From an uncultured Puniceicoccaceae bacterium (GTDB lineage Bacteria; Verrucomicrobiota; Verrucomicrobiia; Opitutales; Coraliomargaritaceae): a DNA stretch of 64,000 bases. The notes under the pieces are model-generated. The model was not told the DNA's origin. It did no database searches and was given only the letters and a program-made list of their open reading frames with translations. The DNA lies in the NCBI GenBank assembly GCA_905479975.1, contig CAJQOS010000053.1:1-64000 (forward strand), written 5' to 3'. Made by a program: the position numbers and the translations under genes. Of the stretch, positions 1,984-29,486 are shown piece by piece; the stretch's first letter is position 1, and the number at the start of each line of letters is the position of its first letter.

Positions 1984-2691
1984 TTAGTGAGCTGCGGCTT
2001 CGGCTGGTGCAGCCTCTGCGGGTGCTTCTTCAGCTGCTGCGGGTGCTTCGGCGACTGGCTCTTCGCCTAGATCGACGACGACTTCTTCTGCGGTCCATGG
2101 TGTGCCGCGTGAGCCGTATTGATCCATGTAGCCGTTGACCGTTGCTTCGGTGACTTCAGAGGCTCCGTTATCCCACTCTTGGCGGATGTAGGTCAAGACG
2201 CCTGCAATCTCTTGTGGCTTCAAGTTGAGACCACTTGGGCCAAAGGCTGGCATATTGCCGTTGAACTTCTTTCCCGCGACTTCGATCGGACCGTTAAGAC
2301 CATTGATCAAGATACGTGCGAGGCTCTCTTGGTGACCAGTCACCCACTCTGAACCTGCAAGCGGTGGATAGACACCTGGCACGCCGAGACCTGTGGCTTG
2401 GTGACAGGCCACACACTGCGCCTTAAATACTTTCGCACCGCGGTCGTAGAGTGATACCTGAACGACTGCAACTTCGGCATTCGGGTCGAAATCCAGTGTA
2501 TACGCGTCTTTATGAAAGTGTCCGCCAAACTGAATCAAATACACCCCGCCCCAAAAGCAGAGTGCGGCAAAGAGGAAGAGGATGAAGATCGGAATCGGCG
2601 ATGAGCCATCACGCGGCTCTTCCTTCTCGCGCATGAGCGAGTCATGCTGATCCTGCTCGCCCGTATCGTTGGTGTGTTGCTCGTCGCTCAT
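1984..2691 (-). CDS. Membrane-anchored monoheme cytochrome c, CcoP-like subunit
   Basis: One N-terminal TM, single CVACH heme c motif, '[20 protein letters not shown]' c-type fold, Ala/Glu-rich C-tail; follows ccoO-like gene. Confidence 0.8.
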
Positions 2692-3344
2692 TATTCGGAA
2701 ATCTGAGCCTCTGGTAGGCTGTAGTTAAGTTTCAGGCTGAGCAAATACTCAACCAATGCTTCGGCGCGCTGAGTCGGCACGACCTCGTATCCAGCTGCGG
2801 GTGCATAATCGGAGTCAGCATCAAACTGCAGTGCGTTGGCAGATACAGCGCCCTCGACCGCACGTGTTTGGTAAAGGAACGAATACTGCGGCATGGTGGA
2901 CTTACCTTCGGATGTAATCTTCGGATTGTAGAGGTGAAGGTGATGTCGGTTGGCATCGTCCTCACGCTCACCGATGGTCATCAGGTCTGGCCCGAGACGT
3001 TGGCTACCGAGTAATACATTACCTTGTGTGACATAATCACGAGCAACGGTGCCGCGCTTGCCCCACTCACGCTCGACATCGGAACCGTAACCGGCACGAC
3101 GCACTTGTTGCGTGTGGCAAGTGACGCAACCGAGATCGGTGTAAACGGCCTTCCCCTGCTGCGCTGCGCCAGGCATCATCGCAGGATACAAAGTTTCACC
3201 GGCAATCGGGTTGCCTAGTTCGTCTAAGGTCTCGGTGGTTTGCGTCAAACTGCCGAGTTGAATATAACTGCTGAGAACCAAGCCCATCAGCGAGAACGCT
3301 AAGGCGGTTAAGATCCCACAAAAAAGAAGCGGTAGATTTTTCAT
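2691..3344 (-). CDS. cbb3-type oxidase subunit II-like (CcoO family) monoheme cytochrome c
   Basis: [26 protein letters not shown]...[17 protein letters not shown]...STMPQYSFL, characteristic CcoO layout with N-terminal TM. Confidence 0.88.
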
Positions 3345-4813
3345 TACGCTGCACCCTCCTGGTTGGCAGACTCAAGCAATGTAGGCCCTTGCTTCGCACG
3401 GATCGTGCCGGTCGCAAAGAGCATCCAAAGGAAATTTAGTGCAAAGGCGATGTGTCCGATAGCGAGGCAAAGCACGCCAATCGAACGAATCTCCAACCAA
3501 GGCACCATCGATTGAACTACATCGAGGAATGGCACCTCTGCGTTGTTCATTTGATTACCAGCGAGCCAGCCGCCAATGAGCAGTGATACGACGATTGTAG
3601 TAATACCAAGCGCACTGCCCCAGAAGTGGAAGAAGATCAATGTCGAGGACGGCCACTCGCGCCTCGTCAGGCGAGGTAGCATATAGTAAAGACCACCAAA
3701 CATCACCATGGTGAAGAAGCCGTAGACCAAGTGTTGTGTTTGGCCAGTGGCGAAGGTCGTAAAGTGTGTGATCTCGTTGACTGAGCGGAACGCCATGACT
3801 GAGCCAATCAGGCTAGCAAAGAAATAAGACATGATACCGAACATGACGAAGCGAAGTGCGGGGCTGCGCCAGACGTCGGAACGTGCGCCTTTTACGGTCA
3901 TGTAAAGATTGAGACCGACTGCGATAACCGGAATCACCATCATCACCGAAGCGACGATGCTCACCGAGCTCATCCAGACAGGAACTGGACCGCCAATCAG
4001 ATTGACCATCCCAGTCCAACTGCCAAGTGCTGCGAGCGAAACAAATCCAAGCAGCGCCAAAGTGTAGGAGTGAATCGGACGACCGAGCACCTTAGGAATC
4101 ACATAATACGCAACTGCCAAAGCCATCGGTGTGAGCCACAGGTTTTGAATGCTAGCGGAAAACCAGTTTGCGGTGACTGCCTGAACCACGCCACGCGCAG
4201 GGAACCAGACAACCATGAACTCAGAGATCATGTAGACCCATGGGAACCAGAAAAGTGCACCAAGGATATACCATTGGGAGACGTAAACGCCCTGCCCTTG
4301 ACGAGCGCGAAATGCCAGAATGCCCCATGCGCCGATGAGTGCATACGCAATCAACAACAACGGAGTCGCATAACCAGGGAGCTCAAGAAACTCTGCCGAG
4401 TTAAGATCGCCTGCTAGAATACCGAGCAGCCCAACTTTTAAGCCAAGGTTCCAAAAGATGCCTGCGACGATGAGTAGACCAGCATTACGGAACGGCGCCT
4501 GCGATAAACGAGCAATGATCCAGAGGCCGATCGCAAAGATGACATTGCAGGCCCAGCCGAACAGCATCGCGTTGGTCGCAACTGGATAGAGACGCCCGTA
4601 AGTGACGAACTCGCAACCAGCCATGAAGCTCGGCTCATACGATTGGTAGGCCGTGATCAGCGTGAAAGCCGAGCCGATGATGAGCCATGCAAGTGCGGAG
4701 ACGACAAAGAACAATGCCGGAAACCGAATGGATGCATCGATCTCACTCAACACGGTGCGCACGCATGCGGTCGTGGGAGTGGACTGAGAGTTGGACTGTA
4801 GATTAGAATTCAA
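3344..4813 (-). CDS. Heme-copper oxidase subunit I (CcoN-like) homologue lacking canonical histidine ligands
   Basis: CcoN-like landmarks ([84 protein letters not shown]) and many TMs; no His before residue 248. Confidence 0.85.
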
Positions 4814-4920
4814 AATTGAGAATTAGGAATTAGGAGTTATGAATTAGGTCTGCTGTAAATGACGAAGCAATTGAGAATTAGGCGTGATCGAGAACCATTC
4901 CTAATTCGTCATTCCTAATT
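4814..4920. repeat. Heptanucleotide (AATTAGG-type) repeats in two opposed arrays
   Basis: AATTGAG-AATTAGG-AATTAGG-AGTTATG-AATTAGG at 4814-4848, AATTGAG-AATTAGG at 4869-4882, CCTAATT-CGTCATT-CCTAATT at 4900-4920. Confidence 0.8.
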
Positions 4921-5202
4921 GTTTTGATAGGCCGCTACGGTCAACTCCATCGCATCTTGAATCGGTATGCGAACAGTGCCGGCTGCTTCGTCGATAACTT
5001 CGAAGCTAGTGAGCTTTGCGACACCCGCAGCGCGTGCTTCGTCAGCAGTTGCTTGGCGTGCTTCGTTGACCGCTTGATCGACCGGATCCGGACGACTAGG
5101 CAAATAAGCGACGAATAGAATCACAGCGAACACGAGGATTGCGCCGATGATACCGGTAAGAGAGAGCAGACGACTGCCTGGTGATAATTCTGATTGAGAC
5201 AT
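4915..5202 (-). CDS. Small single-TM protein of the ACIII/cco cluster, function unknown
   Basis: MSQSELSPGSRLLSLTGIIGAILVFAVILFVAYLPSR... one TM, then Ala/Glu-rich soluble segment ending RIPIQDAMELTVAAYQNN; between actF and ccoN-like. Confidence 0.7.
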   Translation of the reverse strand: MSQSELSPGSRLLSLTGIIGAILVFAVILFVAYLPSRPDPVDQAVNEARQATADEARAAGVAKLTSFEVIDEAAGTVRIPIQDAMELTVAAYQNN

Positions 5203-5208
5203 CTTAAA

Positions 5209-6480
5209 TTACTCCGCGTAGTTGATGGAAACATTGATATTCGGGTCACGAATAGGAATCGGCTCAGCCTTTTTAGTGCTGCGGCAGAATGCCCAGATGC
5301 AGACACCACCGATACCGATGATGGATGCGATATCGACCCAGTTGACTGAGAACTGACGAACGAGGTACCCCGCTGCGTGTGAGTCAGGATTAACCAACTT
5401 ACCAGGAACGATGTTCCAGTAGAGGTCGAGCAAGTGAAAAGACAAGATCCAGATCGAAATGCCGACGGTGCGCCACACGACGACCTTTGTCTTATACCAA
5501 AGCAGGCAGAGGAACGGAGTGAGGAAGTGACCGAAGATCAAGCCCATGCTCACGAACCACCAAGAGTTGGTCGTGCCGTCGAAGTTCATTTCACGCAGGT
5601 TATACCAGAAGGTTTCTTCCGGAATATTCGCGCTATAGATCAAGAAATACTGAGAGAAACTAATGTATGCCCAGAAGATGGTGAATGCCAGCATCATGCA
5701 GCTGATATCGTAACGGTGCGCTTGCTTGAGGATCCCCTTGAGGTAGCCCTTGGCGGCGAGGATGACTGTTACGATGATGAGTGTTGCGAGTGCAGCACGG
5801 ATACAAGCCGCGAAGAACCACACACCATACATGGTCGAGAACCAGTGGTATTCGAGCGATTTGAACCAGTCAATCGCACCGAGTGTCATGGCAATTGCGC
5901 AGAGGAAGAGTCCAACCGCAGAGAGCGCATGCGCTTTAGTCGTATTTTTGATATCTCCCGTCTTGTCGGTATCGAAGGACCACTTACGTAGTAGACCTGT
6001 GACAATAATGAAGACACCAAAGATGGCGACCACGCGGGCGACGAAGAATTCCTTATTCAGATAAGGCTGCTTCCAAGTGTAGATCGCGTCCTCACCGACA
6101 GTGCCGTGTCCTGGCAATTCGTTGAGTCCACTCATCCATTTCCATAGCAGACCCGGATTCTCGTGAAAGAGCGTAGCCAAGAGTGGTAGGAAGAGCAGCA
6201 GCAACCATGGGAATGCTGCCATACCGTGCTCACATTGACGGCGAATGATGACTGGCCAGCGTGCGTAGAAGACATACCAGATCAAAGTCAGGAATGTCAT
6301 ACCAATGGCGATGGACATCCAGAAACCGAGACCGATGAGCCAACCCATAAATGGGCGTGCGTCAGCTGCGTTCCAACCTTGGAATAAACCGAAGGCTGCG
6401 GCTAAGATGCCGATGATACCAACAACGAGAGCGATGCCCCCTACTTTGTTAGCTTGAGCGTGATGTGCGTCCGAACTCAT
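5209..6480 (-). CDS. actF: Alternative Complex III subunit ActF (NrfD-like integral membrane protein)
   Basis: Multi-TM protein in canonical actABCDEF order; 'TLIWYVFYARWPVIIRRQCEHGMAAFPWLLLLFLPLL', 'FWYNLREMNFDGTTNSWWFVSMGLIFGHFLTPF'. Confidence 0.85.
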   Translation of the reverse strand: MSSDAHHAQANKVGGIALVVGIIGILAAAFGLFQGWNAADARPFMGWLIGLGFWMSIAIGMTFLTLIWYVFYARWPVIIRRQCEHGMAAFPWLLLLFLPLLATLFHENPGLLWKWMSGLNELPGHGTVGEDAIYTWKQPYLNKEFFVARVVAIFGVFIIVTGLLRKWSFDTDKTGDIKNTTKAHALSAVGLFLCAIAMTLGAIDWFKSLEYHWFSTMYGVWFFAACIRAALATLIIVTVILAAKGYLKGILKQAHRYDISCMMLAFTIFWAYISFSQYFLIYSANIPEETFWYNLREMNFDGTTNSWWFVSMGLIFGHFLTPFLCLLWYKTKVVVWRTVGISIWILSFHLLDLYWNIVPGKLVNPDSHAAGYLVRQFSVNWVDIASIIGIGGVCIWAFCRSTKKAEPIPIRDPNINVSINYAE

Positions 6481-6481
6481 A

Positions 6482-7138
6482 TTATTTAATTCCTAACTCT
6501 GTGCGTTGTGCTTCGGAAAGATCCTTGGCGTCAGCGTTTTGAGAGCGTTGTAGCGCTCGAACATAAAGGACGATCGCCCAGCGTTCTTCAGGTGAAATGC
6601 GATCATTGAATGGTAGCATCAAGCCCTTGCCGTTGGTGATCACATCAAAGAGATAACCATCTTCGACACCGCGAAGACGTTCATCGTGGTAGTTGGCGGC
6701 GAGCACGCCGTATGGCTTGGTCACACCGTTACCGTCGCCGGCTGCACCGTGGCAGACTGCGCAGAAGATATCGAACTTCGCCTTACCTTCAGCCATGAGC
6801 GCGTGGCTCACTTCGAGCGGCAGGGTCTTAACGAACTGACCGTCAGCATTCTTGCCTTGATTCAGAACAGTGTCGCCGAGGGTCTGATCATCAAACTCAG
6901 CGGAGAAGACCTCTGCTTGGTTGAAGTAATCACCACGAGCAACCGTCTTGGCTGGCACGGGACGGTCATTACGACCATCGGCGAAAAACTCGTTTTCTGC
7001 CTGCGGCTTGTAGCGCGCTTGGCGGTCCATGTCTGGGAAGACTTCGAGAGGTGGCTTTGTGCTGTGTGAACCACGGAAGCCGAGAATCGACACCGTTGCT
7101 ACAATAGCAAAAACATATATGGCTAAAAAGATACGCAT
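6482..7138 (-). CDS. actE: Alternative Complex III subunit ActE (monoheme cytochrome c)
   Basis: CAVCHGAAGDGNG heme c motif and MLPFNDRISPEERWAIVLYVRALQ; position in act operon. Confidence 0.88.
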   Translation of the reverse strand: MRIFLAIYVFAIVATVSILGFRGSHSTKPPLEVFPDMDRQARYKPQAENEFFADGRNDRPVPAKTVARGDYFNQAEVFSAEFDDQTLGDTVLNQGKNADGQFVKTLPLEVSHALMAEGKAKFDIFCAVCHGAAGDGNGVTKPYGVLAANYHDERLRGVEDGYLFDVITNGKGLMLPFNDRISPEERWAIVLYVRALQRSQNADAKDLSEAQRTELGIK

Positions 7139-7147
7139 GATGATGTC

Positions 7148-7677
7148 CTACGCTGAGACCTCCTCGATGTCGGTTCCGCCAATTTCCGCTAGGAATTGGC
7201 GCGTGGCGACCGAATCAAACTGTGCATCGCGCGACTCAATGGCGATGACCAGACGATCTCCGGAGACCTCTAGGAATTTTTCGTTGTTGAAAAGTGGGTT
7301 ATAGTGCTGAGGCAGCAAATTGGTGATGAACATACCACCGAGCGTGCCGAATGCGGACAACAGGATGGTCAACTCATACATGATCGGGAATGGGAAGACT
7401 GGGCTGAAGAATGGCTGTCCGCCGATGATCAGTGGATAGTTATACGCATTCATGAACCAGACGATAAACATCCCGAGGCAAAATCCGGTGATACCACCGC
7501 AGAAGGTAAAGACCGGCACTTTGGAGCGCGGTTGACCTTGAGCTGCAGGCATTCCGTGAACAGGGAACGACGAATACGTGTCCCACTTTTTGTAACCTGC
7601 ATCCCTCACCTTTTCCGCCGCATGGAAGAAAGAAGGTGTATCTGCGAAGGTCGCGATAATTCCGTGTGTTTCAGACA

Positions 7678-7678
<1 letters not shown>
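7148..7678 (-). CDS. actD: Alternative Complex III subunit ActD (DUF3341 type)
   Basis: [35 protein letters not shown]...[23 protein letters not shown]. Confidence 0.9.
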
Positions 7679-9189
<1,511 letters not shown>

Positions 9190-9213
9190 TTTAATAAGTT
9201 CGCAAGTTAGAAA

Positions 9214-12200
9214 TTAGTGAGCGGCAGGCGCTTCTTCAGAGTGTGAGGAATGGTCGGCACCGTGGTCATCATGAGCAGGTGCGCCGTGGTCGTCGCCGTG
9301 ATCACCACCGTGGTCGTCGCCATGGCTACCATGTCCATAACGCTCGTCGTATTGAGCGTAGGCGTATGGTTTTTCATAAGCATCCGGCATCTTAGGATTC
9401 GGATTACGCAGACGTGCGAGGTAAGTGGTGCGAGGACGCGCATTGAGATAACCAAGCACCGAGTAGTTACGGTCGCTAGCTTTCATCTGCGAGACTTCAG
9501 AGTTGGCATCAGAGATATCACCGAAAGTGATGGCATCGGTTGGGCAGGCCTGTTGGCAAGCGACTTTGATGTTACCATCCGCTATACGAATATCATCGGA
9601 TGCACCAGCGAGACGCTTTTGCTCGATCTTAGCAGATTCGATACGCTGCGTGCAGAATGTGCACTTCTCCATCACACCGCGCATACGCACAGTGACATTT
9701 GGATTTGCGTTCATCTTCTCAAGCTCCGGCTCGTCGACAGGACCGAGTGGACCCTTGTAAACTTCACCGATTTGACGCTTGTTCCAATCGAAGAAATTGA
9801 AGCGGCGCACCTTATACGGGCAATTATTCGCGCAGTAGCGAGTGCCGACGCAACGGTTATAAGCCATGGTGTTGAGGCCTTGTGTGTCGTGCACGGTCGC
9901 ATTCACAGGGCAAACCTGCTCACACGGTGCATTCTCACAGTGCTGACACATCATGCCCATGAAGGACACTTGCACGTCGTCTGGCACCTCAGTCTGATCG
10001 TATTTCTCAGCAGAGAAATAACGGTCAATACGCATCCAGTGCATCTCACGTCCACGAAGGACCTGATCTTTACCAACGATTGGCACATTATTTTCGCTTT
10101 GGCAGGCAACGACACAAGCCGTGCAACCGATGCAGCTATTCAAATCAATTGCCATGCCCCACTGCTGTGGCACTGGGAATGATTCAAGTGGTTCACCTTT
10201 ATCGTCATGCCAAACTTTAACGTTCGGCGCTGGCTTGGAGAATGCGACGTGGTCGTAAGCAGAGTTACCGCGATACTGGTTCACCGACTTCTCTTGAAGT
10301 GATTTGCCGGTATCCTTCGCGTAGTTCGATGGAGCGTGCGACTCGACGCCGATCTTGTTAACGAAATCAGGGGTTTCGGTGTAAGCAGCTGCGGTGTTCT
10401 CGCGAACCAGTGCGCGGCCTTCCATCGACCAGTGCTCCTGTGTATTCGCGAGGTGATAAGTCTTTTCGGTCAGCGTGATGGTGGCACCGAGTGCGCAACC
10501 AAGGCTACCAGAGGTGCGAACCGCATAGGCATCGAACCCAACACCATTACCAACGCGACCAACAACCTTACGGCCCAGACCCAGTGGCAATACCACAGTG
10601 TAGTTTGCAAGACCTGGAACAACGTGGATCGGTGCTTCGATCGTGACACCATTGACAGTCAATTCGACCACAACGGCTTCTTCCTTACCGCGGCGAAAAT
10701 TCGCTTTGTTCGTTTGAAGTGTGCCTTTCGCAGCCTTGAAGAACTCGCTGTCCTTATTCATCGGCTTCTTGCTTGGGAAGATCTGAATGCCTTGAGCGGC
10801 TTCAAGTTCCTTAGCAAGTGATGGGCTGATCTGGATCGCATTATCCCAAGTCAACTTGGTGATCGGATCCGGACACTCCATCATCCAACCATTGTTGGCG
10901 TAGCGGCCGTCGTAAGCGTGTGAGCTCGGTGCGAAACGCACTTCAAGCGCATCCGCGCTCAATTCAAGCGCAGTCAACTCGTCCGCTTTCAGCGCTTTGA
11001 CGACCTTCGCATCATCGACCTTCTCAGACGCGACCTTGAAAGCAGAACCTTCGAGTAAACCATCGCTGAGGAATTTGTTGTAATCGCTGCCACCTTCTGC
11101 GGTGAATGTCGCTTGCGCGATGGAGTAACCATCGGTCGCAGATGCACCCGCAAGGCGAGCCAAGATTTCAAGATCATTGAATGTATCGAACAACGGCTCA
11201 ATCATTGGCTGCACTGGAACCAGTGTGCCGTCGAATGTGCGTCCATCGCCCCAAGACTCCAAGTAATGCGAGCGTGCGATGAAGAGATCTGCAGTCGCAG
11301 ACGTTTCGTTGATCGCACCACCAATGTAGATGCTCTGTGTCGCTTTGGCTTGTGCAGCGGACCAATCAAGATCGATCGGCGCATCGTAAACCGGGTTACC
11401 ACCAAGGATCACGAGCGTTTCCACACCGCCCTGGTTCAAACGAGCTGCGGCCGTTGCGATACCCTGCTCTGCAGTTGGCACTTCGACGTAGTTGATCGGA
11501 GCAGAAAGTGCGTCGTTGATCGCGATCACGATGGCATGCACCGATTTCGGCAAATGCTCACCTGCAACGATGATCGAGTGGCCAGCGTGATCGACCAAGT
11601 CAGTCGCACATGCGTCGACCCATTGAGCATCGACCTTAAGTGATGCACCAATCTTAGCGAGTTCAGCTGCCAACGGACCGCCTACATGCTTCTTATTGAG
11701 CACGGCAGCACCGACTTGAGCGATGAATGCGCCCATTTGGCTGGAGCTAAGACGGAGACGGTGATCGGCCATGGAGCCAGTCGATGTCAGTGTGCTCTCT
11801 ACTGAATAGAGGCGGCTCATCTTGTTCGCATCCTTCGCATCCTTGACCTTACGAGTCTTGGTGAAGTCGCGCGCTTGGCTCAGGGAACCGTCTGCGTTGA
11901 TGAGGAACTCAGCGTCGAGTGCGAGCACACGTTGCGCTTTAGTAAATTCTGGAAGTGCGCGGAGCGACTTGCCGAAGACAGCCTGTGCGGCTTGCTCGGA
12001 AGTGCTTTGATCGATCGCAGTGTTTTCAGTCCAAGTCGCTTTAGGGAAAGCCTTCTGGATCTGCTTCACTAGAGCAGCACGACTCGGAGAGGTGCTTGGC
12101 TCAGCGAGGAATACGAGGCCCTTGCCCTGATCAGCACCATGCGCCTGACGAATCGCTTCGAGACGATCACGAACGACAGCAGGAGAAAGGACGGTAGCGC

Positions 12201-12657
12201 CCTCTTTGCTCTTCGTTGCACGATCCGGATCATACAGATCCAAAATGCTCGCCTGTGTATAAACAGTCGTGGCACCGCCGTAAGGCGTAAAGCTTGGGTT
12301 ACCCTCGATCTTAGTCGGACGACCAGTGTGGGTCTCGACGATCACTGGCACATTATCACGCGCACTCGGCATCGAGGACGTATAATAGACCGGCACACCT
12401 GGAATCACGTTCTCAGGCTGCTTGGAGTAAGGGAGAATCGTTTGTTCCGGACGACGGCAACCAGTCATACCAAGGCCAGCAAGACCAAAGGATGCGGCCA
12501 TGACCTTCATGAAATGGCGACGGTTTACGCCTTCCATATCGGAAGCGCCGGCAGGGAATTCGCGCTCGACCCAATCTTTAAAAGCGGGAGTTTCCGCTAG
12601 ATCGTCGAGGCTCTTCCAGTAACGTGGGCCTGAAAATTCAGAGTTCTTCATTATCAA
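9214..12657 (-). CDS. actB: Alternative Complex III subunit ActB (molybdopterin-oxidoreductase-like plus ferredoxin-like domains)
   Basis: 1147 aa; Tat/lipoprotein-like N-terminus [44 protein letters not shown]-terminal Fe-S motifs [51 protein letters not shown]; His/Asp-rich tail. Confidence 0.93.
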
Positions 12658-12668
12658 AAAGGTGGCGA

Positions 12669-13322
12669 TTAACGGTGGCAGCCTGAGCAGCTCTGTGGTG
12701 GGTTGACCTTCCAGTCATGAACGAAGCCTTCAAATTCAGCTTCAGCTTCAGGACCTGTTGGGCGTTCCCAATCAAGGTTATAAACTTCTTCGATCGGACG
12801 GATGCTGTCCTCCGGATTGCGGTGACAGTCCAAGCAGAACGTCATGCTGAATGGCTTCGCATGCTCGACGACTTCCATCTCATCCACACGACCGTGACAC
12901 TCCACACAGCTGATGCCGCGATTCACGTGCACAGAGTGGTTAAAGTAAACGTAGTCCGGAGTCTTGTGAACGCGCACCCAAGGGATCGGCTCGCCCGAGT
13001 TATAGCTCTCTACGACAGGAGCCAACATCGGATCGTCCTTACGCACCATACTGTGGCATGTCATGCAGACATTGGAGCCCGGCACGTTGGAGTGCTCGGA
13101 ACGATCCACGAATGTGTGACAGTAACGGCAGTCCAGCTCGAGTTGCCCCGCGTGCAGCGCATGGCTAAATGCCACTGGCTGCGTCGGCGCATAGCCTACC
13201 CGCGTATACTTGGGCGTGAAATAGTAAGTAACCCCAAGAGTGACAGCACCCCCGATTAGCATTAATGCTACGATTACTTTAATAGGGATCGTGTTGACCC
13301 ACCTCGGAAATACATTCGCCAT
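12669..13322 (-). CDS. actA: Alternative Complex III subunit ActA (pentaheme cytochrome c)
   Basis: Five CXXCH motifs (CRYCH, CMTCH, CVECH, CLDCH, CSGCH), N-terminal TM. Confidence 0.93.
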
Positions 13323-18413: not shown

Positions 18414-19916
18414 TTACGGAATGATCGGCAGCACGCCCGGGAAGATACCGACGAGCACCGTGGCCACAACCAAAGTGCCGAGCACAATACGATGGCACAG
18501 GCAAAGAGGCTGAGCGGCTTCCACGTCGCCCTCCGTTGGACTCGAGAAGTATGCAACACGCACCCAACCGAAATAGTAGTAAATCGAGATCACGACACCG
18601 AGAACGGAAATCCCTAATAGGCCATAAAGCCCTGCCTGGTAAGCCGCGATAAAGATAAAGAGCTTACCAATGAAGCCACCTAACGGCGGGATACCAGCCA
18701 GCGAACCCAAGCCCGCGGTCAGCACACCACTTAGGAATGGGCGCTTACGTGCGAGATTCTCGTAATGCTCCAACTCTTGATTCGCATCATCAGGCCCGGC
18801 CACGTGCGCCATCACCCCGAAGACTGCAAATGACGCCAACAGGTAAGTCACCAGATAAAAGATCACTGCATACTGTGCCCATGGGATGGTGAGCGCGGCA
18901 ACGACACCAACGAGCAAGTAGCCCGCATGTGCGATACCAGATAGCCCCATCAGTCGTTTGACATTGCGCTGCCCGACTGCCGTGAAATTACCAAACAGGA
19001 TCGTCGCTGCTGCGATAAAAGACAGCACAGGAATCATGAACGAGGCCAAGCCGATGAATGGCCCTCTCAACAACTGTAGCAATACGATGAAGCCCGCTGC
19101 CTTGGACGCGATCGCGAGATACGCAGTCACAGGAGTCGGCGCACCTTGATAGACATCTGGCACCCAGATTTGAAACGGCACCGCACCGATTTTAAAGCAA
19201 ACACCGGCAACCACCAGAATCGCTCCGACACGGACCAACAAATTATCATGATGCATGACGATGAACGCACTCAACTGATCGAAATCCAACGAATTACCGC
19301 TGGAGAGTGCCATCTCAGGATTCCCTGCGATACCGTAGAGCAGCACGATGCCGAACAACAAAATCGACGAGCTCAGCGCGCCGAGAATCAAATACTTCAA
19401 GCCCGCTTCGAGTGAGAACGAACTAGTGCGGCAATATGCGACCAGCACATAGAATGCGATCGTCACTGCTTCGAGCGCAACGAACAGCATCACGAAATTC
19501 GCGCTCTGCACGAGTAACATCATCGACGCTGCGATGATAATTACCAAGTGGAAGAACTCGGTGCGTGGCAGCTGCTGCTTAGAGAGATAAATCTTACCAA
19601 GATAGCAGACGAGAATGGAGCTCACCAAAAAGAAGCCACGCATGATCTGCGACACATCCGTTTGTTCAATCATGCCACTGAAGAAGGTAGTTGCACCTTC
19701 TGTGCGAATACCAGTGCAGCATAGCACGAGCACGAGGACAACCACTTGCCCCCAAATCGCGAGGCGTGCGATCAGCCCCTGCTTGGCAGGCGGCAACACC
19801 ATCTCAGCCCCCAACAGGCCAAGAGCCAGCATGGCCAATAGGATCTCGGGCATAATTGCTGCCCAGTCGTTTGTCGCAGTGAAACTGCGAAGGAATTCTG
19901 CGAGAAGCTCGTTCAT
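18414..19916 (-). CDS. nuoN: NADH-quinone oxidoreductase subunit N
   Basis: Antiporter-like 500 aa; GLKYLILGALSSSILLFGIVLLYG, KIGAVPFQIWVPDVYQGAPTPVTAYLAIASKAAGF. Confidence 0.95.
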   Translation of the reverse strand: MNELLAEFLRSFTATNDWAAIMPEILLAMLALGLLGAEMVLPPAKQGLIARLAIWGQVVVLVLVLCCTGIRTEGATTFFSGMIEQTDVSQIMRGFFLVSSILVCYLGKIYLSKQQLPRTEFFHLVIIIAASMMLLVQSANFVMLFVALEAVTIAFYVLVAYCRTSSFSLEAGLKYLILGALSSSILLFGIVLLYGIAGNPEMALSSGNSLDFDQLSAFIVMHHDNLLVRVGAILVVAGVCFKIGAVPFQIWVPDVYQGAPTPVTAYLAIASKAAGFIVLLQLLRGPFIGLASFMIPVLSFIAAATILFGNFTAVGQRNVKRLMGLSGIAHAGYLLVGVVAALTIPWAQYAVIFYLVTYLLASFAVFGVMAHVAGPDDANQELEHYENLARKRPFLSGVLTAGLGSLAGIPPLGGFIGKLFIFIAAYQAGLYGLLGISVLGVVISIYYYFGWVRVAYFSSPTEGDVEAAQPLCLCHRIVLGTLVVATVLVGIFPGVLPIIP

Positions 19917-21505
19917 TAGTGTGTAACCTCCTTATGTGCTTCAACTGCTTGAGGAAGCGCCGCGTTGATTTCAATAACCGGCAAAGTGCTCTTGGATGTA
20001 TAAAGTTCCTGTAATTCGCGATCAGCTGCATCCGAGAACAGGCGCGGGAAAAGTCCAATGACGACTAAGGCAATGATGAGGACTAAAGCGGGAACGCGCT
20101 CGAAGCGCTTAAGATCTACGATTTCGTCCCCATTCAAACGACCGGCAAAGGCCTCCGTCGGCTTGCCATAGAAAATGTTAGCGACCGCACGCAGACCGTA
20201 GATCGCTGAAATGATGATACCGAGCGCAGCGGGTGCCACGATCCACTTGGTCATCGGAGTTTCGGCCAGCGCAGCAAAAATGGTGAACTCACCCCAGAAA
20301 TTACCAAACCCCGGAAGGCCGATACTCGCCATCGAACCAGCCACAAAGAACGCACATAACACTGGCGCTTTGGTTGCCAAGCCCCCCATCGACGACATAT
20401 CAAAGGTCTGACTGCGGTGATAGATGCAAGTCGAGAGCATGAACAACAGCGCGACGGATAGACCGTGCGCAATCATCATCAGCAACGCACCACCGACACC
20501 GACGACGGAGAACGTCGCGATACCGAGGAAAGCATAGCCCATGTGCATGACCGAGCTGTAACCGAGCATCATCTTCAGATCCTTCTGAGCCATGGTGATC
20601 AGACCGATAATAATGATATTACCAAGTGCCAACCATACGATCCAAGGGAACCAATGAGCCGCACCTGCTGGCAGCAAGGGCGCAGCAATTTGCAACAGAC
20701 CATACAGGCCGAACTTCTTCAGCACACCCGCGTGGAGCATCGCCGCACCCGTTGGCGCAGTGGCATACCCCTTGGGTGCCCAAGAGTGAAAAGGAAACAG
20801 CGAAACCAGAATCCCGAAGCCGAACAGCATCAGTGCGAAAATGTTATTCTGCACAGTGTCCGCAATTGGTTGAGCAGCGAGATAGTCACGCAGCGCTAAC
20901 AAGGAGAACGAATCCGCCCCACTCTGCACATACAGCGCGATCAATCCGAGCAACGAGAGCAACGCACCCAGTGTCAGGTAGATCGTCATTTCAATCGCCG
21001 CACCACGCTTACCGGCACCACCCCACACACCGATCATGATAAAGGTCGGAATGAGTGCGAACTCGTGGAAGAAGTAGAAGAAGAAAATATCAACCGAAGC
21101 AAAGGTGCCCATCAGACCGCCGAGCATGAACAGCAACATCGCGAGATAGAGATGCGGACGCTCTGCTTTAGAGAACATCGCATAGATGCCCGCCGCAAAG
21201 CCAACGACACCCGCGAGCATGAAGAGCGGCATCGAGATACCGTTCAGACCGAGGTGCAGGTAAATGCCAACCGCTTGCAGTCCGGTCGCCAAGCGCACTT
21301 CGAAATTGTAGCCACCGACCAGCGATGGCTCGAATTGACTGTAGAGGAACAACGCAGCGAGCAGCGGAGTGGCGAAGCCAATCACGCTAACCGCGCGAAT
21401 ACTGTTGGTGTTGAAGCGAGCTCCGAACAGCAAGAACAACCCCGCAGACAGCGGAGTCAGAATTGCAGCCAAGAGGCAAAGTGAGGATGTATCGACGGAT
21501 GTCAT
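19916..21505 (-). CDS. nuoM: NADH-quinone oxidoreductase subunit M
   Basis: FFYFFHEFALIPTFIMIGVWGG, FPFHSWAPKGYATAPTGAAMLHAGVLKKFGLYG. Confidence 0.95.
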   Translation of the reverse strand: MTSVDTSSLCLLAAILTPLSAGLFLLFGARFNTNSIRAVSVIGFATPLLAALFLYSQFEPSLVGGYNFEVRLATGLQAVGIYLHLGLNGISMPLFMLAGVVGFAAGIYAMFSKAERPHLYLAMLLFMLGGLMGTFASVDIFFFYFFHEFALIPTFIMIGVWGGAGKRGAAIEMTIYLTLGALLSLLGLIALYVQSGADSFSLLALRDYLAAQPIADTVQNNIFALMLFGFGILVSLFPFHSWAPKGYATAPTGAAMLHAGVLKKFGLYGLLQIAAPLLPAGAAHWFPWIVWLALGNIIIIGLITMAQKDLKMMLGYSSVMHMGYAFLGIATFSVVGVGGALLMMIAHGLSVALLFMLSTCIYHRSQTFDMSSMGGLATKAPVLCAFFVAGSMASIGLPGFGNFWGEFTIFAALAETPMTKWIVAPAALGIIISAIYGLRAVANIFYGKPTEAFAGRLNGDEIVDLKRFERVPALVLIIALVVIGLFPRLFSDAADRELQELYTSKSTLPVIEINAALPQAVEAHKEVTH

Positions 21506-21534
21506 TGCTATCTAAATTGTATCGTTCGCCTATT

Positions 21535-23388
<1,854 letters not shown>

Positions 23389-23392
23389 TAAT

Positions 23393-23698
23393 CTAGCGAC
23401 TCAGAGCGTTAAGTTGGTCCACCATGACAGACTGACGACGTCGGAACAGTGCGACGATGATTGCCAGGCCGACGGCGACTTCGGCAGCCGCCACGGTGAT
23501 GATGAAAAAGACGAAGAGGTTGCCGTCCATTGTCCCGTTGTAACGAGAGAATGCCACGAGCGCCAAATTCACCGCATTGAGCATCAGCTCAAGCGACATA
23601 TAAATGACGAGCGTGTTTTGACGAAGGGTCACCCCGAGTAGCCCCACTGCAAACAGCAGTCCAGCTAGGAGAATAAAAGCATTAAGTCCGACAGTCAT
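23393..23698 (-). CDS. nuoK: NADH-quinone oxidoreductase subunit K
   Basis: [25 protein letters not shown]...[26 protein letters not shown]. Confidence 0.95.
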
Positions 23699-23738
23699 TT
23701 TTTAGAATTTAAATTTAAGAAAGAAGAAATTAGAAATA

Positions 23739-24107
23739 CTAGTTTCTCTCATCATTATCCTTATTAAGAGTAATTAAAGTGGAGCCGATGATCTTAAGCA
23801 GTTCATCGCAATCATTGAGCAGAGACTCAGCAGAGTCTTCATTGATAAAATCTGAGTCACGAAGCAGGCGTAACCAATAGTGAGTCTCGCGCGCTTCTTT
23901 ATAAGAGATCGATAATTTGTGTTTAAAATCTTTCCGAGAATGTCCGCCTAGGGCTTCTTCAACGTTCGCACCAATTGAAGTCCCACTGCGTAATATTTGC
24001 TTCGAAATATCATACTCTGACTTCTCTTCGCGCAGATAGCGACGCAACTGAACGATGCGCAAAGCAAAAGCATAAGACTTTTCTGCAGCTGGATTAGATT
24101 TAGTCAT
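23739..24107 (-). CDS. Four-helix-bundle protein (S23/23S-rRNA-IVP-type family) inside nuo operon
   Basis: SYAFALRIVQLRRYLREEKSEYDISKQILRSGTSIGANVEEALGGHSRKDFKHKLSISYKEARETHYWLRLLRDSDFI matches the typical pattern of this family. Confidence 0.85.
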   Translation of the reverse strand: MTKSNPAAEKSYAFALRIVQLRRYLREEKSEYDISKQILRSGTSIGANVEEALGGHSRKDFKHKLSISYKEARETHYWLRLLRDSDFINEDSAESLLNDCDELLKIIGSTLITLNKDNDERN

Positions 24108-24133
24108 CGTATCGTATTTCGACTCTCTTCTTT

Positions 24134-24147
24134 CCTAATTCTTAATT
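24134..24147. repeat. Heptad repeats CCTAATT-CTTAATT overlapping nuoJ stop
   Basis: On minus strand AATTAAG-AATTAGG; nuoJ stop TAA is inside the first unit. Confidence 0.7.
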
Positions 24148-24678
24148 CGCGCTATGGCGCTTGGACACGACAATCACGCCGATCATAGCGGCAAGGAGAA
24201 GGAAGCCAGCCACTTGGAACGGCAGCATGTATTTAGTAAAGAGGCTGTAACCAAAAGACTTGGAGGACGTGGTAAACGGCACACCCGCATCGAAGACTTC
24301 AGGATTCTCTGTCACTGCGGTCAACGTAGGCTCTGGGAGATGTCCTCCGGAAAAGGCCGAGAAGAGAAGCACGGCAAAAAGCAAGAAACCGATCCCCGAA
24401 GCAGCAAGTGTCAGCTTGCTCTTAAACTCGGCGCCCTGCTCTTTCTCCACATCCAGTAGCATGATGATAAAGAGGAACAGCACCATGACTGCCCCCGCAT
24501 AGACCACGACTTGAACGATCGCGAGGAAGTAAGCCTCCAACAATACGAAGAGTGCCGCAGTGCCAAGGAACGCGACGATCATGCAGAAAGCGCTATTCAC
24601 CGCATTCGGCATCAGCACCATCAGCACGGCCGAAATGAGCGTGACCGCTGAGAAAATATAAAAGAGTAGATCAATCAT
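24142..24678 (-). CDS. nuoJ: NADH-quinone oxidoreductase subunit J
   Basis: VNSAFCMIVAFLGTAALFVLLEAYFLAIVQVVVYAGAVMVLFLFIIMLL. Confidence 0.95.
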   Translation of the reverse strand: MIDLLFYIFSAVTLISAVLMVLMPNAVNSAFCMIVAFLGTAALFVLLEAYFLAIVQVVVYAGAVMVLFLFIIMLLDVEKEQGAEFKSKLTLAASGIGFLLFAVLLFSAFSGGHLPEPTLTAVTENPEVFDAGVPFTTSSKSFGYSLFTKYMLPFQVAGFLLLAAMIGVIVVSKRHSAN

Positions 24679-24679
24679 T

Positions 24680-24707
24680 CGTAATTCCTAATTCGTAATT
24701 CCTAATT
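24680..24707. repeat. Heptad repeat array (AATTAGG-AATTACG)x2 directly upstream of nuoJ
   Basis: CGTAATT-CCTAATT-CGTAATT-CCTAATT on plus strand. Confidence 0.85.
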
Positions 24708-24712
24708 GATGT

Positions 24713-25261
24713 TTAGTGCGCGTTGCCGGCTTCTTCAGCGGCCTTCTTCTTGTCCCACTTGTGGTGTTTGTCCGGTAAGGTGCCGCCCAATTCGTAGAGC
24801 TTGTCCTTCTTGTTAATCATCTCTTCGCGGCTGTAGCCCGACATAGAGAAAATATCCTGCAAGACGATCGCCTCTTCCGGGCAAACTTCCTGGCACAGGC
24901 CACAGTAAATGCAGCGCAGCATATTGATATCAAATTCCTTCGGTGCTTTCTCGATGTGTGCGCGTTCTGGATCTGCCTCAGCATCAATCTCGCCTGGTGT
25001 GATGCGGATCGCCTTAGGTGGGCAAACAAACTCGCACAACTGGCAAGACACACACTTCTCGCGACCATTCGGGTCACGCACAAGTGTCGGCACTCCGCGA
25101 TAGTTCTCAGCGATGACGGGACGATGCTCTGGATATTCCAGTGTGATCGTCTTATCAAACATCGCTCCCAGGGTTGTTTTCAACCCAGTGACGATTTGCG
25201 GAATAAATGTTTTTTCCGCGAATGAGAGCGGCTTGCGCTCCATAACTTTAGTCTTAGCCAT
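24713..25261 (-). CDS. nuoI: NADH-quinone oxidoreductase subunit I
   Basis: Two 4Fe-4S motifs CVSCQLCEFVCPPKAI and CIYCGLCQEVCPEEAI. Confidence 0.95.
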   Translation of the reverse strand: MAKTKVMERKPLSFAEKTFIPQIVTGLKTTLGAMFDKTITLEYPEHRPVIAENYRGVPTLVRDPNGREKCVSCQLCEFVCPPKAIRITPGEIDAEADPERAHIEKAPKEFDINMLRCIYCGLCQEVCPEEAIVLQDIFSMSGYSREEMINKKDKLYELGGTLPDKHHKWDKKKAAEEAGNAH

Positions 25262-25273
25262 AGTATTTGCGGT

Positions 25274-26389
25274 TTAAAGTGTGTCGTAGAGAGCGATGAG
25301 GATCGTGTTAAAGATCAAGTTACCGATAGCGAGCGGAAGCAGAATCTTCCAGCCCAGTGCCATCACTTGGTCATAACGGAAGCGCGGAAGCGTCCAGCGC
25401 ACCCAGATGAAGAAGAAGATCATGAAGAAGACCTTCGCCATGAACCAGAGCACGGACAGCACCGCGCCGAATTCACTCGTGCCCCAAGGATCTGCCATCC
25501 CAGGAAGGAAATTCCAACCACCGAGGAACAGGCAGACGAACAACGCCGAGCCCATGATGACGTGTGCATACTCGGCCACGAAGAACAGACCGAATTTGAA
25601 GCAACCATACTCAGTATGGAAACCACCGACGAGGTCGGTTTCGGATTCCGCCATATCAAATGGCAGACGGTTCGTTTCAGCAAAGACCGAAACGAGAAAA
25701 ATCAACGCAGAGAGCGGCTGCCAAATGACGAGCCATAGACCCGATTGCGACTCCACCACACCGAAAAGCGAAAGACCGTAGTCAGAACCCGGAGCGGATG
25801 CCCACATAAATACAGGGAGAATGGAAAGTCCCATCGCCAACTCGTAAGACACCATTTGCGCGGATGCTCGAATCGCACCGAGGAATGGATACTTACTGTT
25901 CGAAGACCAACCAGCCAGCACGATACCATACACACCGAGCGAAGAAACGCCCAAGATGAAGAGCATGCCGACATCGATATTCGCAAGCACGAGTGGCTGC
26001 ACCACTCCCGTCGGATCCACGTAGCGACCGAACGGCAACACGACCATGGTGGTCAATGCTGGAGCGAGCGCTAAGATCGGCGCGAGGTAGTAATAGCCCT
26101 TCTTCACGTGACCTGGTGTGATCTCCTCCTTGAAGAGGAACTTCAGACCATCGGCTACGGGCTGAAAGACCCCCAAGCGTGTAAGGATGTTACCGAGAAT
26201 CGGAATATGTCCGAGCAATGGCAAGCGTGTGCGATTCGGGCCAGTGCGGCCTTGAATCCAACTGGACACCTTGCGCTCCGCGAGAACGGAGTAGCTGCAA
26301 AGCCCCATAAAGACGGAGATCATCGCGACTGAGAAAACAATCGGTAAGACGAACGGAAGCGAGTTTGTTAGGTATTCCATGGCCGGCAA
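25274..26389 (-). CDS. nuoH: NADH-quinone oxidoreductase subunit H
   Basis: ERKVSSWIQGRTGPNR, FAETNRLPFDMAESETDLVGGFHTEY. Confidence 0.96.
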   Translation of the reverse strand: MPAMEYLTNSLPFVLPIVFSVAMISVFMGLCSYSVLAERKVSSWIQGRTGPNRTRLPLLGHIPILGNILTRLGVFQPVADGLKFLFKEEITPGHVKKGYYYLAPILALAPALTTMVVLPFGRYVDPTGVVQPLVLANIDVGMLFILGVSSLGVYGIVLAGWSSNSKYPFLGAIRASAQMVSYELAMGLSILPVFMWASAPGSDYGLSLFGVVESQSGLWLVIWQPLSALIFLVSVFAETNRLPFDMAESETDLVGGFHTEYGCFKFGLFFVAEYAHVIMGSALFVCLFLGGWNFLPGMADPWGTSEFGAVLSVLWFMAKVFFMIFFFIWVRWTLPRFRYDQVMALGWKILLPLAIGNLIFNTILIALYDTL

Positions 26390-26395
26390 TTTGCT

Positions 26396-28117
<1,722 letters not shown>

Positions 28118-28121
28118 GGTC

Positions 28122-29486
28122 TTAGATCAGCGTGGTCTCCTTAGCTGGCTCTTGCCCTTCTTTGCGGCGGGCAGCTTGTTCGCGGGCTTTCTCCACGAAC
28201 TCGTCTTTAAATTTAGCGATGAAACTTTGAACCGGCCAAGCGGCGGCTTCACCGAACGCACAAATCGTGCGACCTGCGATTTGGTCAGCAATTGATTTCA
28301 ATAAATCTGCATCTTCTTCACGTGCTTCGCCGTCACACATGCGCTGTGTGACCTTACGCATCCATGGCACACCTTCGCGACATGGAGTGCACTGACCGCA
28401 ACTTTCGTGGGCGTAGAAATAGTTCAAATTCGCAAGGGCTTCGACCATATCAGTCGAATCATCCATCACGATCACACCACCGGAACCAGACATCGAACCG
28501 ACTGCACCGAGGCTGTCGAAGTCCATGGGGATGTCTTCAATGCCCCAGTCGTATTCAGTGCCGTCTTTGAGTTTACCAGTGAAACGCTCGTCGGCGCGGA
28601 GAATCTTCGAAGACGAACCGCCTGGGATGACTGCCTTGAGCTTACGTCCAGGCTTGAGGCCACCGCAAACATCATTGATCAACTGTCCAAGCGTCAGCGC
28701 GGAACATGGAAACTCATAGTAACCAGGCTTTTGCACGTGACCAGACACACACCAAATACGTGTGCCAGTGTTGCCCGGAGTGCCGATTTCAGAGAAGGCT
28801 TTGCCGCCCATGTCGATGATGTGCTTCACATCGCACAATGTCTCGACGTTGTTTACAATCGTCGGGCACTGATACAGGCCGAGCGCTGCTGGGAAATATG
28901 GAGGCTTAATACGTGGATTCGCACGGTTGCCTTCGATCGATTCGATCAGGCCCGTCTCTTCACCACAAATGTATGCACCCGCGCCACGGTGGACGATGAT
29001 GTCGCAGGAATAACCGGAGCCGAGAATGTTGTCGCCGAGTAGATTCTTCGCACGTGCTTCTTCGATCGCACGTTCGAGAATCTTGTAACCTTGGAAGAAT
29101 TCGCCGCGGATATAAATGAAGGCGAGCTTTGCTTGAATCGCAAATGCGGTGCACATCATGCCTTCGATCAACTGATGCGGATCTTGATGGATGATTTGAC
29201 GATCCTTGAAAGTGCCTGGCTCAGATTCGTCCGCATTACAGACGAGGTAGATCGGCTTTCCTGACTTACGGTCGAGGAATTCCCACTTCATGCCGGCAGG
29301 GAAACCCGCGCCGCCACGTCCGCGCACACCAGAAGTCAGCACGTCCGCGCAGATATCTTCAGGCTTCAGCGTGACCGCATGCTTGAGTTGCTCGTAGCCA
29401 CCGTGCTTGATGTAGCAATCGATATCGTTGGTGTAGCCGGGCTCATCAACGTGCTTAAAAATCAGCCTTTTTTGCTCTAGCGCCAT
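28122..29486 (-). CDS. nuoF: NADH-quinone oxidoreductase subunit F
   Basis: SGVRGRGGAGFPAGMKWEF, CNADESEPGTFKDR, GAGAYICGEETGLIESIEG, ESCGQCTPCREG. Confidence 0.96.
   Translation of the reverse strand: MALEQKRLIFKHVDEPGYTNDIDCYIKHGGYEQLKHAVTLKPEDICADVLTSGVRGRGGAGFPAGMKWEFLDRKSGKPIYLVCNADESEPGTFKDRQIIHQDPHQLIEGMMCTAFAIQAKLAFIYIRGEFFQGYKILERAIEEARAKNLLGDNILGSGYSCDIIVHRGAGAYICGEETGLIESIEGNRANPRIKPPYFPAALGLYQCPTIVNNVETLCDVKHIIDMGGKAFSEIGTPGNTGTRIWCVSGHVQKPGYYEFPCSALTLGQLINDVCGGLKPGRKLKAVIPGGSSSKILRADERFTGKLKDGTEYDWGIEDIPMDFDSLGAVGSMSGSGGVIVMDDSTDMVEALANLNYFYAHESCGQCTPCREGVPWMRKVTQRMCDGEAREEDADLLKSIADQIAGRTICAFGEAAAWPVQSFIAKFKDEFVEKAREQAARRKEGQEPAKETTLI

Follow-up and report, generated by a model that had tools for sequence, protein, structure and literature searches.

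A CcoN-like protein without metal ligands in the alternative complex III operon of Verrucomicrobiota, and its probable role as a non-catalytic module

In this study, we analysed the window, a stretch of 64,000 nucleotides from an uncultured Puniceicoccaceae bacterium, in which a cbb3-like gene set (N, O and P) follows the genes of alternative complex III (ACIII). The CcoN-like subunit I, N, was confirmed to be a full-length 12-helix protein with the CcoN fold and without metal sites. Judging from its sequence and predicted structure, loss of catalysis in ligand-less N is close to certain. We consider it likely that a cbb3-type oxidase has repeatedly been made into a non-catalytic ACIII module, in which two cytochromes c are anchored and ACIII is connected with another oxidase.

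The act operon and the N protein of the window

All genes of the locus lie on the minus strand, in the order actABCDEF (5209..13322), then x95, N, O and P (Table 1). The actA-F order, an ActD and an NrfD-like ActC, by which an alternative complex III operon is recognised, were all found. No Pfam match was obtained for actF. The small protein x95 matched no Pfam or NCBIfam family in profile searches, and most act-N-O-P operons of the order contain it. The whole arrangement, actABCDEF-x-N-O-P, is maintained in same-genus relatives. Complex I genes (nuoF, G, H, L, M and N) were seen a few kb from the act operon (18414-29486, minus strand).

Table 1. Features of the window locus. Codon coordinates of the N sites were computed from protein positions.
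Feature	Position	Strand	Details and basis
CcoP-like monoheme membrane cytochrome c (P)	1984..2691	-	CVACH; canonical CcoP is diheme
CcoO-like monoheme cytochrome c (O)	2691..3344	-	CVTCH
CcoN-like subunit I (N), ligand-less	3344..4813	-	489 aa, TTG start; profile, PDB, alignment, AlphaFold
Gln360 codon	3734..3736	-	heme b ligand H349 position, helix X; L002 alignment
Gln358 codon	3740..3742	-	heme b3 ligand H347 position, helix X; L002 alignment
Val270-Asn271 codons	4001..4006	-	CuB ligands H257-H258 position; L002 alignment
Gly264 codon	4022..4024	-	cross-linked Tyr251 position, helix VII; L002 alignment
Ala220 codon	4154..4156	-	CuB ligand H207 position, helix VI; L002 alignment
Ala79 codon	4577..4579	-	heme b ligand H60 position, helix II; L002 alignment
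x95, small one-TM protein between actF and N	4915..5202	-	C-terminal IPIxxAMEL motif
actF	5209..6480	-	423 aa; position and conserved operon order
actE, monoheme cytochrome c	6482..7138	-	Pfam search
actD	7148..7678	-	PF11821
actC, NrfD-like quinol-oxidising subunit	7678..9189	-	PF03916
actB, molybdopterin-type and Fe-S protein	9214..12657	-	ORF and operon comparison
actA, multiheme cytochrome c	12669..13322	-	ORF and Pfam

The relationship of N to CcoN was examined with profiles and structures. Pfam COX1 matched at 195.5 bits (cut-off 34.8). NCBIfam ccoN gave 165.8 bits for the window N, under its equivalog cut-off of 583. Residues 33-474 aligned with cbb3 CcoN chains of the PDB at E values of 1e-36 to 1e-31. 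The AlphaFold model, built on a 50-row alignment, had a pLDDT of 89.7 and a pTM of 0.91, and it superposed on P. stutzeri CcoN (3mk7_A) with TM scores of 0.87/0.91. The top seven matches of a PDB structure search with the model were all cbb3 CcoN.

The active site was read by alignment with L002, the canonical CcoN of the same genome. The sites are H60, H207, Y251, H257, H258, H347 and H349 in P. stutzeri CcoN numbering, and N replaces all seven, in this order, by A, A, G, V, N, Q and Q. The two low-spin heme b His are thus A79 and Q360, the heme b3 His is Q358, the three CuB His are A220, V270 and N271, and the cross-linked Tyr of helix VII is G264. The sequence-only reading had claimed that the ligand His of a 489-aa CcoN-like protein were replaced, and this was borne out. 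Scoring of the six His ligands by alignment and AlphaFold, which it had proposed, found none of them present and the cbb3 CcoN fold kept. N has five His, at 248, 350, 361, 396 and 454, so that the claimed absence of His from the first 247 residues was exact. The N frame is also intact, and the heme c motifs are present in both O and P, again as claimed.

With the C-family cbb3 oxidase of P. stutzeri (3mk7), the window set has in common the fold and sequence relationship of CcoN, the N-O-P gene order, and CcoO- and CcoP-like cytochromes c, O being monoheme in both. However, the window N lacks the ligands for heme b, heme b3 and CuB as well as the cross-linked Tyr, the window P has one CxxCH instead of two, and N lies in an act operon. 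From its sequence, N would be unable to reduce O2 by any known heme-copper mechanism. Although it descended from the C-family, N is not a cbb3 oxidase, because the defining ligands are absent.

Retention and repeated change of the ligand state

We found uninterrupted ligand-less N in eight other genomes of the same genus, at 68-90% identity. Their seven positions mostly read AYGVQQQ; one copy reads AAGVNQQ, as in the window, and two read AGGAQQL and SYGAHLQ. Between the window and the relative L091, dN/dS was 0.10 for N, 0.14 for O, 0.07 for P and 0.14 for actE. Pairwise dN/dS of N was 0.06-0.25 in ligand-less pairs and 0.01-0.09 in ligand-keeping pairs. The constraint on ligand-less N is relaxed yet clearly purifying. 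The marks of a pseudogene (stops, frameshifts, dN/dS near 1) are absent from N, and the same-genus intact copies together with the dN/dS reject a sequence error or pseudogene. The earlier statement that gene decay is unlikely therefore holds. At the ligand-less loci, CxxCH was present in 72 of 72 O and in 69 of 69 readable P proteins. Loss of a c heme from O or P as well was rejected: no such case was seen, and L092, which had looked like one, has a masked stretch that reads as X.

A survey of act operons for His-less CcoN had also been proposed. In a phylum sample of 390 genomes, 94 Verrucomicrobiota genomes carried an act-linked N, of which 66 have lost the ligands and 28 retain all seven residues. 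The ligand count was bimodal, with 79 rows keeping all seven and the other complete copies keeping 0-3. The sole row with four ligands, L040, is truncated and keeps 4/4 visible positions. The ligand-keeping act-linked N-O-P of other Verrucomicrobiota have the same operon and subunits, and their N has 60% identity to the window N; unlike the latter, they keep the six His and the Tyr.

Trees of ActB+ActC were built by two methods, FastTree and site-mixture IQ-TREE, which agreed. They require at least 14 changes of ligand state, and at least 10 of these are forced by well-supported branches. Most changes should be losses, because regain of seven specific residues is implausible. The window clade is nested inside ligand-keeping relatives: the window N is 60% identical to the ligand-keeping L097 and 45% identical to the nearest ligand-less copy outside its own clade. 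Most ligand-less clades likewise have ligand-keeping copies, and not another ligand-less clade, as their nearest relatives. A single ancient loss was rejected by the forced changes on the act trees and by these nearest-relative identities. Replacement sets are specific to clades (QQGRHQQ, AHSSRRW, FEAADVQ, HSAQKFI, LNATYHW), as would be expected of independent losses.

The sequence-only reading had held that close relatives keeping the ligands would point to sequence error or recent decay. Same-family copies with all seven residues do exist at about 60% identity. They do not mean error or recent decay, because the ligand-less state has become fixed in entire genera and families, and loss of the ligands recurs throughout the phylum.

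Some copies differ from both common states. In L174 and L292, the low-spin heme b pair (H60 and H349) remains and the b3 and CuB ligands are gone; by their sequence, they may represent a half-way state with the electron-transfer heme only. Nearly all members of a large class-level clade (L181-L208) retain H60 alone, and almost every other ligand is lost. Relatives of N in named genomes were found in Verrucomicrobia, Planctomycetes, Acidobacteria and Burkholderiales. Every copy found outside Verrucomicrobia retains all ligands, and act genes were seen upstream only in L013. The Burkholderiales copies (L019-L041) belong to the same CcoN clade and form N-O-P sets with all ligands; no act genes were seen in their fetched flanks.

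Methylacidiphilum and the other oxidases of the genomes

Genes next to ACIII in Methylacidiphilum have been described as a cbb3-type cytochrome c oxidase (PMC8498564, PMC6688271), and the Kam1 genome paper ties high oxygen affinity to this set (PMC6688271). Two sampled genomes, G095 and G200, were putatively assigned to M. fumariolicum SolV and Kam1; their pMMO gene numbers, 3 and 4, match. The Methylacidiphilum set has the same genes in the same order as found here (act, N, O, P, then aa3). It was published as a working high-affinity oxidase, whereas the act-linked N of the putative SolV and Kam1 reads SESSHFV at the seven positions. This is the only CcoN-like gene in both genomes. A second CcoN was rejected, since the other C-family-like gene of SolV (G095) is NorB, and the remaining COX1 matches in Methylacidiphilum are A-type and ba3-like. 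The model of the Kam1 (G200) N has the cbb3 CcoN fold (pLDDT 84.0, TM up to 0.87). On this evidence from sequence and model, the ACIII-adjacent set of Methylacidiphilum cannot be an O2 reductase.

We next considered the other oxidases. The search of the window genome for further oxidase genes that the sequence-only reading had suggested found a caa3 whose subunit II has a fused cytochrome c, a bd oxidase, and a canonical CcoNO in fused form. Among relatives, 23 of 24 ligand-less genomes have another heme-copper oxidase match, which in G005 is a fragment only; in one ligand-less genome, 79% complete, no other oxidase was seen. Three genomes (G014, G021 and G025; 97-99% complete) have no heme-copper oxidase other than the ligand-keeping act-linked N, and no bd oxidase was found in them. 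A fourth such genome, G041, is 80% complete. The sole-oxidase genomes fit the ligand-keeping form being a real working oxidase. The association of ligand loss with owning another oxidase went in the expected direction and was not significant (Fisher p 0.22-0.35, kinship ignored), so that a significant tie was rejected.

At about 28 ligand-less loci, an aa3 oxidase directly follows P (cox1, cox3, cox2 at many class-level loci). Its subunit II has CuA and no fused cytochrome c; therefore, O and P could be the missing cytochrome bridge. Two ligand-keeping loci (L012 and L275) likewise carry aa3 genes downstream, so that this layout is not confined to ligand-less loci. Other oxidases of the window's genus are unlinked to the act operon. 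At L270 (G124:C1:952000-971900), a nos operon with Sec-type NosZ lies between actF and a ligand-less N-O-P-aa3; this placement has been published for M. caldifontis IT6 (PMC11102522). Table 3 of PMC13274419 gives the three genes that immediately follow ActF in Verruconatronum as a caa3 oxidase; from their number and place, they may be N-O-P.

Proposed role, rival explanations and significance

The ancestor of act-linked N-O-P would have been a working C-family (cbb3-type) oxidase beside ACIII. N would have lost its hemes, the CuB site and the active-site Tyr in the window lineage and, by separate events, in many further lineages of Verrucomicrobiota, and the 12-helix protein would have been retained together with O and P, its two cytochrome c partners. 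N would then be a cofactor-free membrane scaffold that keeps the hemes of O and P close to ACIII. These hemes would take electrons from those of ActA/ActE and hand them to another oxidase, namely a caa3 encoded elsewhere in the window genome, or the aa3 directly downstream in other families.

The sequence-only reading had proposed a non-catalytic scaffold for two cytochromes c. Its non-catalytic part is strongly supported by the absent ligands, the kept fold, purifying selection and the hemes of O and P. The scaffold and electron-relay part is consistent with operon order, kept c hemes, a further heme-copper oxidase in almost all ligand-less genomes, the loci with an aa3 right after P and, by analogy, known ACIII-oxidase supercomplexes. 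That N-O-P associates physically with ACIII is an assumption based on operon order, and we infer the electron route from ACIII via O and P to the oxidase. Direct transfer from ACIII to an oxidase through cytochrome c domains was reported in R. marinus (ACIII-caa3) and F. johnsoniae (ACIII-aa3), which resembles the hand-over proposed here (PMC5928083, PMC8361435). However, those supercomplexes have no CcoN-like subunit, whereas in the present case the bridge would consist of O and P carried by a ligand-less N. No literature on ligand-less CcoN proteins was found among open-licence papers.

Ligand-less N might instead have unconventional ligands for a heme or some other cofactor and retain an electron-transfer or catalytic role. 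The copies that keep H60 with H349, and the class-level clade that keeps H60, favour such a residual cofactor. However, the window N has none of the six metal ligands, the Tyr and surrounding pocket residues are gone along with them, and the replacements vary by clade and include small or hydrophobic residues (A, F, L, I, W and G), with no common substitute ligand; we regard this explanation as unlikely. A slightly lower probability is given to N being dead weight, a slowly decaying oxidase remnant kept only because it lies between needed genes. Ligand-less N does evolve about 2-3 times faster than ligand-keeping N, and its alignment scores are very low in Methylacidiphilum. Against decay stand the full-length, stop-free frames across genera and families with dN/dS far below 1, the fold kept in both high-confidence models (pLDDT 89.7 and 84.0), the residues fixed clade-wide at former ligand sites, such as QQGRHQQ, and the c-heme motif of O and P, which is never lost.

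The cofactor-free membrane subunits of ACIII, ActC and ActF, have proposed proton paths (PMC5928083), and by this precedent N could have acquired a new active non-redox role, such as ACIII-coupled proton or ion movement, or regulation. However, ligand-less N lacks several polar residues that are conserved in the ligand-keeping form, and we think this role improbable, a little more so than dead weight. An artefact of assembly, sequencing or motif alignment has a negligible probability: it is already refuted by the same-genus copies, which share the ligand-less state and come from independent genomes. Several comparisons by profile and structure also agree, and the Methylacidiphilum case rests on published closed genomes.

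Taking the widely cited Methylacidiphilum cbb3 as included, we lean towards the broader reading that Verrucomicrobiota repeatedly made a catalytically dead ACIII subunit, an anchor for two cytochromes c, from an ACIII-linked cbb3, with a ligand-less heme-copper protein as the bridge of a new kind of quinol-to-oxidase supercomplex. The heme-copper superfamily is usually defined by its metal ligands, and it is surprising that a retained protein has repeatedly lost the whole site. Many genomes whose annotation places a high-affinity cbb3 next to ACIII would have none, and the inference of oxygen affinity from the ACIII-adjacent set of Kam1 (PMC6688271) would lose its basis. The natural 'before and after' pairs within one family, at 60% identity, may allow the scaffold function of a terminal oxidase to be considered apart from its catalysis, together with the hand-over of electrons from ACIII.
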